Shown one piece after another: positions 48,756 to 51,818 of a DNA stretch of 64,000 nt. How positions within the stretch are numbered: position 1 is the stretch's first letter; each line of letters opens with the position of its first letter. The translations under genes and the position numbers were made by a program. Under the pieces are notes generated by a model that did not search any database, was not told the origin of the DNA, and saw nothing but the letters and a program-made list of their open reading frames with translations. Source of the stretch: Ectothiorhodospiraceae bacterium 2226. Its GTDB lineage: Bacteria; Pseudomonadota; Gammaproteobacteria; GCA-013348725. The stretch spans positions 1,166,501-1,230,500 of the forward strand of contig CP054689.1 of the NCBI GenBank assembly GCA_013348725.1, given 5' to 3'.

Positions 48756-48895
48756 GGCAGCGTCCTCGCGTACAAGAAACTCACGCCCGGGCGATACCGC
48801 GAGCGCCCTGGGATAACATCGGAAAGTTTAGGCAAGTGGCGGGGTTGAAGCGGCTGCGGCGGGCGCCGCCACGCGCCCGCCGACAGTCGCAGCGA

Positions 48896-50983
48896 CTACT
48901 GCTCGGTGAGGCGCGCGTAGGCCTCGAAGCGATCGCGGATGTGGCGCACGTAGTTGACCGGTTCCTGGCCGCGCACGTAGCCGTGCGCCGCGTGGCGGTG
49001 ATACTCGCGTTGCGCGAGCAGCAGCATGGCGTGCTCGACGTTGTCGAACCACTGGTCCGAGGCCCAGCCCTTTTGCGCGGCCAGCCGACGCGCGTCGCGC
49101 ACGTGACCGATACCGGCGTTGTAGGCCGCCAGCGCGAACCAGGTACGGTCGGCCATGTTCAGTTCCGGCTCGAAGCGGCGCATCAGCCAGTCCATGTACT
49201 GCACGCCGGCGTGGATGCCGGAGTCCGGGTCGTGCAGATCGTCGAAGCCGAGTTCGCGGCCGGTGCGCGGCAGCACCTGCATCAGCCCCAGCGCGCCGGC
49301 CCAGGAACGGGCCGCCGGATCGAAGCGGCTCTCCTGATACATCTGCGCCACCACCAAACGCCAGTCGAAGCCGTAGCGCTCGGCGTAGCGGCGCACGAGC
49401 TCGTCGTACGGCGAGAGCGCGGCGGCCGAGGCGCCGTCCACCCGCTCGCCGACGTGCGCCTGGATGGTCCGGTCGTTGCCGAAGTACTTGGCGCGCGTCA
49501 GGTTGTAGAACACGCCGCGGTACTCGCGCCGCAAAAACCCGTTCACCGCCTCCACCAGTTGCGGGTTGTCGGCGCGCATCAGCCATCCGTGCGCGCCCTC
49601 CTCGGTCAACGCAAAGGCCGCGCGGATGTCGTCGCGGTAGGTCTGCTCGATCTCGACGATGTGGCTGTCGGCCACCGTCAGGTCGTATTCGCCGCGCCCG
49701 ACCCGATCGATGATCTGCTCGGTCTCCAGGTCCTCCGCCGCGGCCACCAGTTCGAAGGCGTAACCCGCCTCGCGCAGCGCGCTCAGGGTGCGCCAATAGC
49801 TGCTGTTGCGGCGCACCACGACCGTGCGCCCGGCGAGGTCGTCGGCGGACTGGATACCGAGGTCATCGGCGCGCGTCACCAGCAATTCGGTGACGCGATG
49901 GTAGGGGCGCGAGAACACCATGCCCTCGCCGCCCCCCTCGGCGCTGATGGTGAGCGAGGCCGCGGCGAGGTCGGCGTGGCCGTCGCGCACCCAATCGCGC
50001 AGCGCGGCATGGCTCGGCGGCACCACCACCGCCAGGCGCAGGCCGCGGCTGTCGGCGAAGCGCTTGGCCAGTTCGTATTCGAAACCCATCAACTCGCCGC
50101 GGAACAGAAAGTAGTTGGCGGCGTTGTTGCGCGTGGCTACGCGCAGCACCCCGCGCGCGGCGATGCCGTCGAGGTCGTCGGTATGGATCTCGTTCGGCGT
50201 GCTCAGCAATTGATGGCTGCTGAGGAAGCGGTTCACGCTCGCCAGCAGCTGCGGGGCGTCGCGCCGTACCGCCCAGCCCACCGGCCGCACGTCGGGCAGC
50301 GTGAGCGCGACGTGCAGGTCCTCGCGGCCCGGCAGCAGCGCCAGGGCGGTGTTGCTGTCCAGCACCGCGAGCTCGTAGCTGCCGTTGGCCACGCCGTCGA
50401 GCAGCGCCTCGTCCGAGCCACCCTCGGCGGTCACGATCTCGAACGGCTCCTGAAAGCGCTCGGCGTGGATGCGCTGCAGGGTCTCCTGGAAACTGCTGTC
50501 GCCGAACGCGGCCACACGCTGCCCGCGCAAATCGCGCGGCGACTCGAGCCGCACGTCCGTGCGCCCGATCACCACCTCGCGCACGAAGGCGATCGGCGCG
50601 GAGAACGCGAAGCGCGCCATGCGTGTCTCGGTGATGGTCAGGTTGGCCGCGGCGAGATCGCCTCGCCCCGCTTCGAGCGCCGCGAACAGCTCGGTGAGGG
50701 AGTCGACCAGCACCCACTCGATGGCGCGGCCCTCGCCGGCGGCGTACTCGCCCAACAGTTCGCGTTCCGCCGCATCCGGCAGACCGCTGCGCGGCAGAAA
50801 GTCCGGGCCGTCGAGCTGGCGCAGGGTGATGACGCGCAGCGGCGTCTGCTGCGCCGTTGCCCGCTCACGCTCCGCGGCGGACTCCTCCGAGCTGCAGCCG
50901 GTCTGCGACAAGGCCGCTACCGCCAACAGGGCCGCGGGTGTGCACAGGTAGGCCAGCCGCCGGAAAAAGTCGCGTGTTGTCAT
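48896..50983 (-). CDS. Lytic transglycosylase with two tandem solute-binding domains (MltF-like)
   Basis: 695 residues. A signal sequence with possible lipobox (TGC, Cys30) is followed by two type-3 solute-binding domains in tandem (about 47-270 and 278-505), then an SLT domain (about 525-660) with catalytic Glu in MYQESRFDPAARSWAGALGLMQVLP. Ordinary MltF is about 500 residues with one binding domain that regulates the enzyme after binding peptidoglycan peptide. The second copy is unusual. The start at 50983 lies next to a G-rich ribosome site; the long upstream frame is a shadow. It cuts glycan strands in the periplasm. Confidence 0.88.
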   Translation of the reverse strand: MTTRDFFRRLAYLCTPAALLAVAALSQTGCSSEESAAERERATAQQTPLRVITLRQLDGPDFLPRSGLPDAAERELLGEYAAGEGRAIEWVLVDSLTELFAALEAGRGDLAAANLTITETRMARFAFSAPIAFVREVVIGRTDVRLESPRDLRGQRVAAFGDSSFQETLQRIHAERFQEPFEIVTAEGGSDEALLDGVANGSYELAVLDSNTALALLPGREDLHVALTLPDVRPVGWAVRRDAPQLLASVNRFLSSHQLLSTPNEIHTDDLDGIAARGVLRVATRNNAANYFLFRGELMGFEYELAKRFADSRGLRLAVVVPPSHAALRDWVRDGHADLAAASLTISAEGGGEGMVFSRPYHRVTELLVTRADDLGIQSADDLAGRTVVVRRNSSYWRTLSALREAGYAFELVAAAEDLETEQIIDRVGRGEYDLTVADSHIVEIEQTYRDDIRAAFALTEEGAHGWLMRADNPQLVEAVNGFLRREYRGVFYNLTRAKYFGNDRTIQAHVGERVDGASAAALSPYDELVRRYAERYGFDWRLVVAQMYQESRFDPAARSWAGALGLMQVLPRTGRELGFDDLHDPDSGIHAGVQYMDWLMRRFEPELNMADRTWFALAAYNAGIGHVRDARRLAAQKGWASDQWFDNVEHAMLLLAQREYHRHAAHGYVRGQEPVNYVRHIRDRFEAYARLTEQ

Positions 50984-51056
50984 GTCCGCCCCCCCCGGGT
51001 ACTTGTTTGGGCGCACTATATCCGCTGCGCGGCGCCGGGGTACAGCCGGGCGCCGC

Positions 51057-51818
51057 TCAGGCGGTGGCGCCCTCGGCGCGCACCGGCACCGCGGTACGGC
51101 AGTCCGGGAATGCGGCGCAGGCCCAGAACTCGCGCCCCGCGTGTGGCCCCGACACCGCGCGCCGACGGCGCATCCCGCCGCCGCACTTGGGGCACGGCGG
51201 CGCTGCCTCGGCCGCGCCCGCGACCAGCGGCCCGATGGTCGGCTCCACGCGGCCCGGCGGCGGGTCCGGCTCCACCTCCCCCTCGTCGAACACCGGCTCG
51301 CGGCGAACCGCGGGCGGCGGCGCGACGGTGGTCGCCCGCAGCACCGCGTCGCGCAGCGCCTCGACGGAATAGCTGCGGGTGGCCGGGATGCGCAGCAGGG
51401 GAAGCGCGGCGTCGCGGCACGCGTGCTCGAGAAAGGCATCGCGTCGGCGCCGCGCCGCGCCCCGGTGGGAGCGGTCGTCGAGCTCGATGGCGCACAACGG
51501 CACGATCTCGTCGGGAGTGCAGAGCAGGAAGTCGAAATGCTTGGCCGAGATGCGATTGAAGGCGCGCAGGTGCGCGGCGCGATCGCGCGCCATCACCTCG
51601 AGCACGTCGGCCACGCGCACCTTGCCGAGGATGCGGTAGTCGCTGCCGACGGCCTGTTCCAGCACGCCGAGAAAGGAGCGTTCGGCGGGGCTGAACAGCG
51701 CGCCGCGGCGGATGTAATCCGACTGCCCCTCGCCGGACGGGCGCCAGCGCCGCGCGAGCAAGGCGTACAGAATGGCCGCAACGGCCAGGAAAGCCAGGAA
51801 CAAGATCGCGGCGTTCAT
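51057..51818 (-). CDS. Membrane-anchored DUF2726 protein with C4 zinc finger
   Basis: 253 residues. An N-terminal helix (AAILFLAFLAVAAILYALLA) anchors the protein. A DUF2726 nuclease-like domain follows: FSPAERSFLGVLEQAV, FDFLLCTPDEIVPLCAIELDDRSH. A C-terminal topoisomerase-type zinc finger (CPKCGG...CAAFPDC) at 212-243 could bind DNA. The E-L-D-D core resembles restriction-endonuclease folds. Function unknown; a membrane-tethered DNA-binding or nuclease role is inference. Confidence 0.8.
   Translation of the reverse strand: MNAAILFLAFLAVAAILYALLARRWRPSGEGQSDYIRRGALFSPAERSFLGVLEQAVGSDYRILGKVRVADVLEVMARDRAAHLRAFNRISAKHFDFLLCTPDEIVPLCAIELDDRSHRGAARRRRDAFLEHACRDAALPLLRIPATRSYSVEALRDAVLRATTVAPPPAVRREPVFDEGEVEPDPPPGRVEPTIGPLVAGAAEAAPPCPKCGGGMRRRRAVSGPHAGREFWACAAFPDCRTAVPVRAEGATA

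Follow-up and report, generated by a model that had tools for sequence, protein, structure and literature searches.

The window analyzed here, a stretch of 64,000 nucleotides of contig CP054689.1 from Ectothiorhodospiraceae bacterium 2226, carries on its minus strand a gene whose 695-residue product consists, in order, of an export signal, two solute-binding protein (SBP) domains (D1 and D2), and a catalytic SLT domain. A first-pass annotation had placed this gene at 48896-50983 and described its product as an MltF-like lytic transglycosylase with two SBP domains in series; the coordinates and product length are correct, with coding on the minus strand, and the two SBP folds in front of SLT are borne out by Pfam, NCBIfam, AlphaFold2 models, and the relatives. 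The features are given below, with residue counts for a 68-row set (67 loci plus the window; 67 rows are distinct), a 95-protein set (the 68 rows plus 27 proteins from a class survey), and, where noted, a thinned set of 58 proteins less than 70% identical; the pocket counts are approximate, since in divergent members the alignment can be off by one or two residues at the Arg column, and the 68- and 95-row alignments disagree, for instance, for locus L081.

48896 to 50983, minus strand: whole gene, ATG at 50983-50981 and stop at 48898-48896, 695 amino acids, translated without an internal stop.
50894 to 50983, minus strand: export signal, residues 1-30, ending ...LSQTGC; read from the sequence, with a predicted helix at residues 3-29.
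50198 to 50851, minus strand: D1, the outer SBP domain, residues 45-262, recognized from Phosphonate-bd (PF12974, also an SBP model; best stretch at 85-247), part of PF00497, the AlphaFold2 model, and MltF matches.
50621 to 50623, minus strand: R121, the D1 pocket Arg; R in 65/68, 80/95, and 45/58 thinned.
50357 to 50359, minus strand: D209, the D1 pocket Asp; D in 66/68, 85/95, and 49/58 thinned.
49475 to 50176, minus strand: D2, the inner SBP domain, residues 270-503, counterpart of the single SBP of MltF; PF00497 at 280-502 and the NCBIfam MltF model at 267-684.
49934 to 49936, minus strand: G350, at the D2 column for the pocket Arg; Gly here, R in 42/68, 56/95, and 38/58 thinned.
49667 to 49669, minus strand: D439, the D2 pocket Asp; D in 63/68, 82/95, and 50/58 thinned.
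48908 to 49432, minus strand: SLT catalytic domain, residues 518-692; PF01464 at 529-638, 87 bits; the best-conserved part.
49331 to 49333, minus strand: E551, the catalytic Glu in a QESRFDP motif; E in 68/68 and 95/95 members.

That the gene is a chance or frame artefact is ruled out by its 67 near-complete relatives and by the catalytic Glu in 95 of 95 proteins. A 907-residue open frame on the plus strand (48836-51559) lies antisense across the whole gene and is most likely a shadow of high-GC coding DNA. Upstream by 73 bases on the same strand is a gene (51057-51818) for a DUF2726 protein with a topoisomerase-type zinc ribbon. Neither it nor any other of six window neighbors has a match in 105 related loci (tblastn at 1e-6 and 1e-4), a weak negative given the short flanks of many of these loci; the positive control matched all 105. 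When flanking frames of 68 loci were clustered, the window was absent from the 15 largest groups, each of 7 to 16 loci. A scan for promoters and terminators returned no promoter-like and one terminator-like site, with 0.2 and 1.4, respectively, in shuffled sequence.

The export signal ends in QTGC, and C30 is possibly a lipoprotein signal cysteine through which the protein would be lipid-anchored; the Q at position -3 is off the usual lipobox and unusual against its consensus. A simple pattern, which misses the QTGC of the window protein itself, finds a lipobox-like Cys in 36 of the 68 members, and N-termini of other relatives in this set end in an AQA-like signal-peptidase site. The tandem family thus seems, from these N-terminal motifs, to include both anchored and soluble forms.

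The D2-SLT part of the protein corresponds closely to MltF. The NCBIfam MltF equivalog model (PRK10859) fits residues 267-684 with 416.4 bits, well above its cut-off (354), leaving outside it a 266-residue N-terminal extension that comprises the export signal and the additional SBP domain. Pfam SBP_bac_3 (PF00497) scores 89.3 bits with two stretches in the protein, of which the one in D2 (280-502) is the best. Structurally, the stretch from 269 to 501 superposes on 5uh0, a fragment of MltF containing the SBP, with Z 28.4 and rmsd 2.2 over 230 aligned residues, and residues 269-690 match MltF 4p11 with Z 32.3, the rmsd of 10.9 over 406 residues going with domains that are placed differently. 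E551 aligns with the Glu of YQES in Pseudomonas aeruginosa MltF, and its counterpart there is presumably the catalytic E316 (described for that enzyme in PMC10746161). The full-length AlphaFold2 model, for which 52 of the 68 sequences were aligned, has pLDDT 90.2 and pTM 0.81, and in it open cannot be told from closed, nor active from inactive.

The refuting condition named in the first-pass annotation, a domain without an SBP fold, did not come about. When D1 is modeled alone (AlphaFold2 model mc58cdabadcc5, from an alignment of 38 of the 68 sequences; pLDDT 90.4, pTM 0.85), it is predicted to be a full two-lobed SBP, such that D1 and D2 are, by prediction, both SBP folds. D1 is also a separate SBP_bac_3 match in the genome scan (36.3 bits, cut-off 26.4), which spans part of the profile (positions 26-95 of 132). 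Ranked by Foldseek alone, D1 has arginine-binding proteins in its top three rows and MltF in the fourth; upon structural realignment of these matches the first ten rows are all P. aeruginosa MltF entries (Z 24.0-24.8), with 4p11 at Z 24.8 and rmsd 2.3 Å over 213 aligned residues. Amino-acid SBPs follow MltF, an arginine-binding protein being next (Z 23.6, rmsd 2.1, 201 aligned). A profile of 38 D1 sequences run against PDB sequences likewise places MltF first, at 4.6e-32.

Single-SBP MltFs have one SBP domain before SLT; the window protein has two, and we therefore class it in a tandem-SBP sister group rather than as MltF proper. The same genome also encodes a single-SBP MltF (G000:C1:459741-460988), which is 32% identical over residues 269-687, and there are four weaker SLT matches besides MltF. 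At E 0.001, SBP_bac_3 has three domain matches in this 2.96 Mb genome, two in the tandem protein and one in the single-SBP MltF; a stand-alone amino-acid SBP of the SBP_bac_3 family was not found in the genome scan at this threshold.

Six short peptide patterns, scanned against a collection of species genomes, yielded 76 related loci, 67 of them with near-complete relatives; nine were excluded, four because they run off the contig (L057, L059, L070, and L076) and five because they fall below 630 residues (L065, L072, L073, L077, and L078). By title, 64 of the 76 belong to gammaproteobacterial groups, four are named just 'bacterium' or Proteobacteria, and eight carry other names (Nitrospinota, Nitrospirales, Deltaproteobacteria three times, Acidobacteria, and Flavobacteriales twice). 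The tandem genes under these other titles reflect either transfer or mis-binning, between which we cannot tell. Four of these loci (L010, L012, L021, and L029, from MAGs titled Nitrospinota, Nitrospirales, Deltaproteobacteria, and Acidobacteria, respectively) group among gammaproteobacterial sequences in the tree.

A survey of the class covered 276 genomes, of which 146 have a match of any kind at 1e-30 (four candidates were scored in most), and loci were taken from the 30 best-matching genomes. Domain scanning finds D1, D2, and SLT in one frame in at least 28 of the 276 (27 of 29 loci, and the window's own), and the survey of tandem arrangements that the first-pass annotation had proposed thus finds this order conserved across many related bacteria. 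A further 1e-30 match is present in 18 of the 30 tandem-survey genomes, with none listed in 12; the listing for genome G216 shows a second tandem-like copy. In the first of the two exceptions (L102), D1 is separated from D2-SLT, the two occupying overlapping plus-strand frames (558-1520 and 1480-2715), a frameshift or split gene. In the second (L109, 1009-2937, minus strand) the N-terminal part is shortened and the traces of D1 amount to just two pieces of 8 bits, possibly a secondary loss of the outer sensor; genomes G270 and G062 have short frames resembling that at L109, judged by frame length alone. Two large proteins from class genomes (L149 and L151) have three or four SBP domains in a row by profile matches and are partly outgroups in the tree. 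In a survey of 299 genomes of the phylum (limit 1e-50), long tandem matches occur in five, including the window's, all of the same class, and matches outside the class start at query residue 258 or later. Plasmids gave matches in 36 records, none of them covering 80% of the query.

The descent of the two SBP domains was addressed with a larger tree (37 D1, 37 D2, and 22 MltF rows) and a smaller one (14, 14, and 12 rows, respectively, plus 18 other SBP domains). D1, D2, and the SBPs of single-SBP MltFs form three separate clades in both, with support of 98/95 for D1 (14 rows), 100/99 for D2 (14 rows), and 100/100 for MltF (12 rows). Together, the three form one clade relative to the 18 SBP domains of other proteins (99/99), which indicates that the duplication is old. 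D1 and D2 are sisters in the best trees (support 80, 72, and 93/73); a tree constrained to unite D2 with MltF has a likelihood above that of the free quick search and is not rejected (p-AU 0.908). The two domains are 31% identical to each other in the window protein and 16-40% over 37 proteins. The simplest account of these trees would be that an MltF-type SBP was duplicated once, ahead of the spread of the family. Recruitment of D1 from an ABC-transporter SBP is unsupported among the domains compared, given the common clade with D2 and MltF and a best PDB profile match to MltF.

Canonical family-3 SBPs use an Arg, in the column of R121 and G350, to grip the ligand carboxylate, and an Asp, in the column of D209 and D439, to bind the ligand amino group. 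By this standard the two pockets of the window protein are unequal, D1 having the amino-acid-type Arg/Asp pair, and D2 having the Asp together with Gly in place of Arg. The Gly is unique to the window protein among the 68 rows, and its nearest relative (L007) retains the Arg. Single-SBP MltFs keep the Arg in 20 of 22 and the Asp in 20 of 22 (22 of 27 such loci were used; two of the five omitted are repeats), so a canonical Arg/Asp pocket is the likely starting state. When aligned to the profile without gaps, P. aeruginosa MltF has Asp rather than Arg at the column and an Arg two positions before it, and PDB titles list this protein with isoleucine, valine, leucine, cysteine, a tetrapeptide, and muropeptides; a missing Arg is therefore no proof that the D2 pocket is dead. 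The comparison does show that the pocket types of D1 and D2 differ in the window protein, at the level of residues, with D1 classic and D2 closer to P. aeruginosa MltF.

We recognized no description of a tandem-SBP lytic transglycosylase among the papers listed in searches of the open-access literature. The obvious comparison is with MltF itself (YfhD in Escherichia coli). P. aeruginosa MltF (PA3764), like the window protein, combines SBP_bac_3 with SLT and has the catalytic Glu aligned, whereas the window protein has an extra SBP in front and a D2 that groups separately from the SBPs of single-SBP MltFs. P. aeruginosa also has MltF2 (PA2865), so that, as here, one genome encodes two enzymes of MltF type (PMC10746161, PMC9712689). 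MltF2 presumably has a single SBP domain.

Tandem SBP domains are known from other settings. Vibrio cholerae CdgH (PDB 5gzs; fold match over 488 columns, rmsd 22.2) also has two PBPb/SBP domains in series, but there they drive a diguanylate cyclase across the membrane rather than a transglycosylase. As recounted in the cited passages, one CdgH domain binds Arg, Lys, and Orn and the other prefers Gln and His, ligand alters the shape of the dimer, and arginine side chains are named as holding the ligand in CdgH and homologs (PMC5431781). BvgS and EvgS share the serial arrangement of two SBP-type domains (fold matches 4q0c and 9ilw), although both are sensor kinases that span the membrane and work through a dimer mechanism; the excerpted account of BvgS has a mobile membrane-distal Venus flytrap domain and a closed proximal one (PMC4352136). 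CdgH and BvgS thus provide precedent for tandem SBPs with unequal roles. The SBD1-SBD2 unit of GlnPQ (6h30) is a fold match with tandem SBPs in one chain, but is part of an ABC transporter, according to the entry title. With pocket residues that differ here, and tandem CdgH domains that prefer different amino acids, it is plausible that D1 and D2 would bind different ligands.

For P. aeruginosa MltF, a muropeptide in the SBP domain is described as opening the active site of the catalytic domain (PMC10746161, in the portion cited). We suggest that the D2-SLT half of the exported, possibly lipid-anchored window protein would work in the same way, with a ligand-bound SBP opening the active site, and that the duplicated D1 would contribute a second binding site. 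D1, with its classic Arg/Asp pocket, would more probably do the sensing, its ligand being an amino acid or the terminus of a stem peptide; D2, lacking the Arg, could either relay closure of D1 to SLT or retain a muropeptide site like that of P. aeruginosa MltF. Our preferred reading, held tentatively and at somewhat less than even confidence, is thus of an MltF-related lytic transglycosylase with sensors in tandem that acts either through a primary sensor and a relay or as a graded two-input switch.

The first-pass annotation had instead proposed an AND gate, in which each SBP domain would recognize a different wall fragment and SLT would open only once both sites are filled. Two SBP folds with distinct pocket signatures in the window protein, and the different amino-acid preferences of the CdgH tandem domains (in the cited part of PMC5431781), are in keeping with this. 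Across the family, the Arg/Asp pair is kept in D1 in 78 of 95 proteins and in D2 in 54 of 95. Its presence in both domains in 49 proteins (33 of 58 thinned) also suits an AND gate, but as a family rule the fit is poor; 29 proteins have the pair in D1 only, five in D2 only, and 12 in neither, such that the pair is missing from one or both domains in 46 of 95, and from D1 in 17, whereas the catalytic Glu is present throughout. The window protein itself, moreover, is without the D2 Arg. We regard the AND gate as unlikely, and a sensor and relay or a graded two-input switch is more probably correct than a strict AND gate.

The pocket counts also temper the preferred sensor-relay or graded-switch reading. 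The 95-protein set contains near-copies (L053/L060, L013/L088, and L022/L090 are identical, and L062/L064 are 99.5% identical), and in the thinned set the pair is present in both domains in 33 proteins, in D1 only in 10, in D2 only in 4, and in neither in 11. The case for a strong family-wide asymmetry between D1 and D2 pockets is weakened accordingly, as 78 versus 54 of 95 shrinks to 43 versus 37 of 58, and the recount lowers the weight of that reading. A single group of near relatives, which have Gln in the D2 column, accounts for most of the asymmetry. In favor of the reading, minimum numbers of changes on the SLT tree, counted on one FastTree of that domain with gaps scored as 'not Arg', are 12 for the D2 Arg column and 4 for the D1 Arg; the D1 Asp needs 4 and the D2 Asp 7. 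Loci L101, L103-L108, and L111 are among the 12 without the pair in either SBP domain, and retain the catalytic Glu; judging by their pocket residues, members of this kind may bind other ligands or none.

Those members also bear on a mainly structural role for D1, in membrane reach, docking on a partner protein or on peptidoglycan, or dimer formation, with the pocket as a leftover. Proteins with neither pair (12 of 95, 11 of 58 thinned) are what such a role would allow, and D1 is the least conserved domain, with mean pairwise identities of 34% for D1, 42% for D2, and 59% for SLT; at L109, mere traces of it persist. Moreover, the cited section on P. aeruginosa MltF has the isolated catalytic domain active, so that activity needs no extra regulator (PMC10746161). 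However, in the 68-row set R121 is conserved in 65 proteins and D209 in 66 despite the low identity of D1, and both are among 13 positions of residues 45-262 that are kept in at least 64 of 68. Retention of the pocket pair in a domain that otherwise varies is the pattern expected of a working pocket, and we consider a mainly structural D1 unlikely as well.

It is improbable that the ligands of D1 are free amino acids instead of wall fragments, coupling wall cutting to the nutrient or envelope amino-acid state, as suggested by its canonical Arg/Asp signature, by the arginine-, ornithine-, and glutamine-binding proteins that are its fold neighbors after MltF, and by a genome with no SBP_bac_3 proteins (E 0.001) beyond the tandem protein and MltF, since D1 is nearest to MltF SBPs by tree, profile, and structure, the trigger reported for MltF in the cited passage is wall fragments (PMC10746161), and fold neighbors do not fix the ligand.

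SBP-regulated SLT enzymes were already known, and the tandem-SBP form adds a variation on MltF. A broader proposal, which at present we find doubtful, is that these proteins represent an old and widespread gammaproteobacterial tandem-sensor class, in which the duplicated outer domain senses something other than the wall fragment that MltF reads, for example a free amino acid or one particular terminus of a stem peptide, and two chemically different inputs gate cutting within one periplasmic enzyme. The unequal pockets offer simple mutants, at R121, D209, and D439. A transporter-type binding domain that turns on a wall-cutting enzyme is described, in the part cited, for P. aeruginosa MltF (PMC10746161), and a second, separately evolving sensor provides a natural experiment on the tuning of wall turnover. 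The tandem enzyme often coexists with an ordinary MltF-type match in the same genome, and in these bacteria wall cutting may respond to a second chemical signal.
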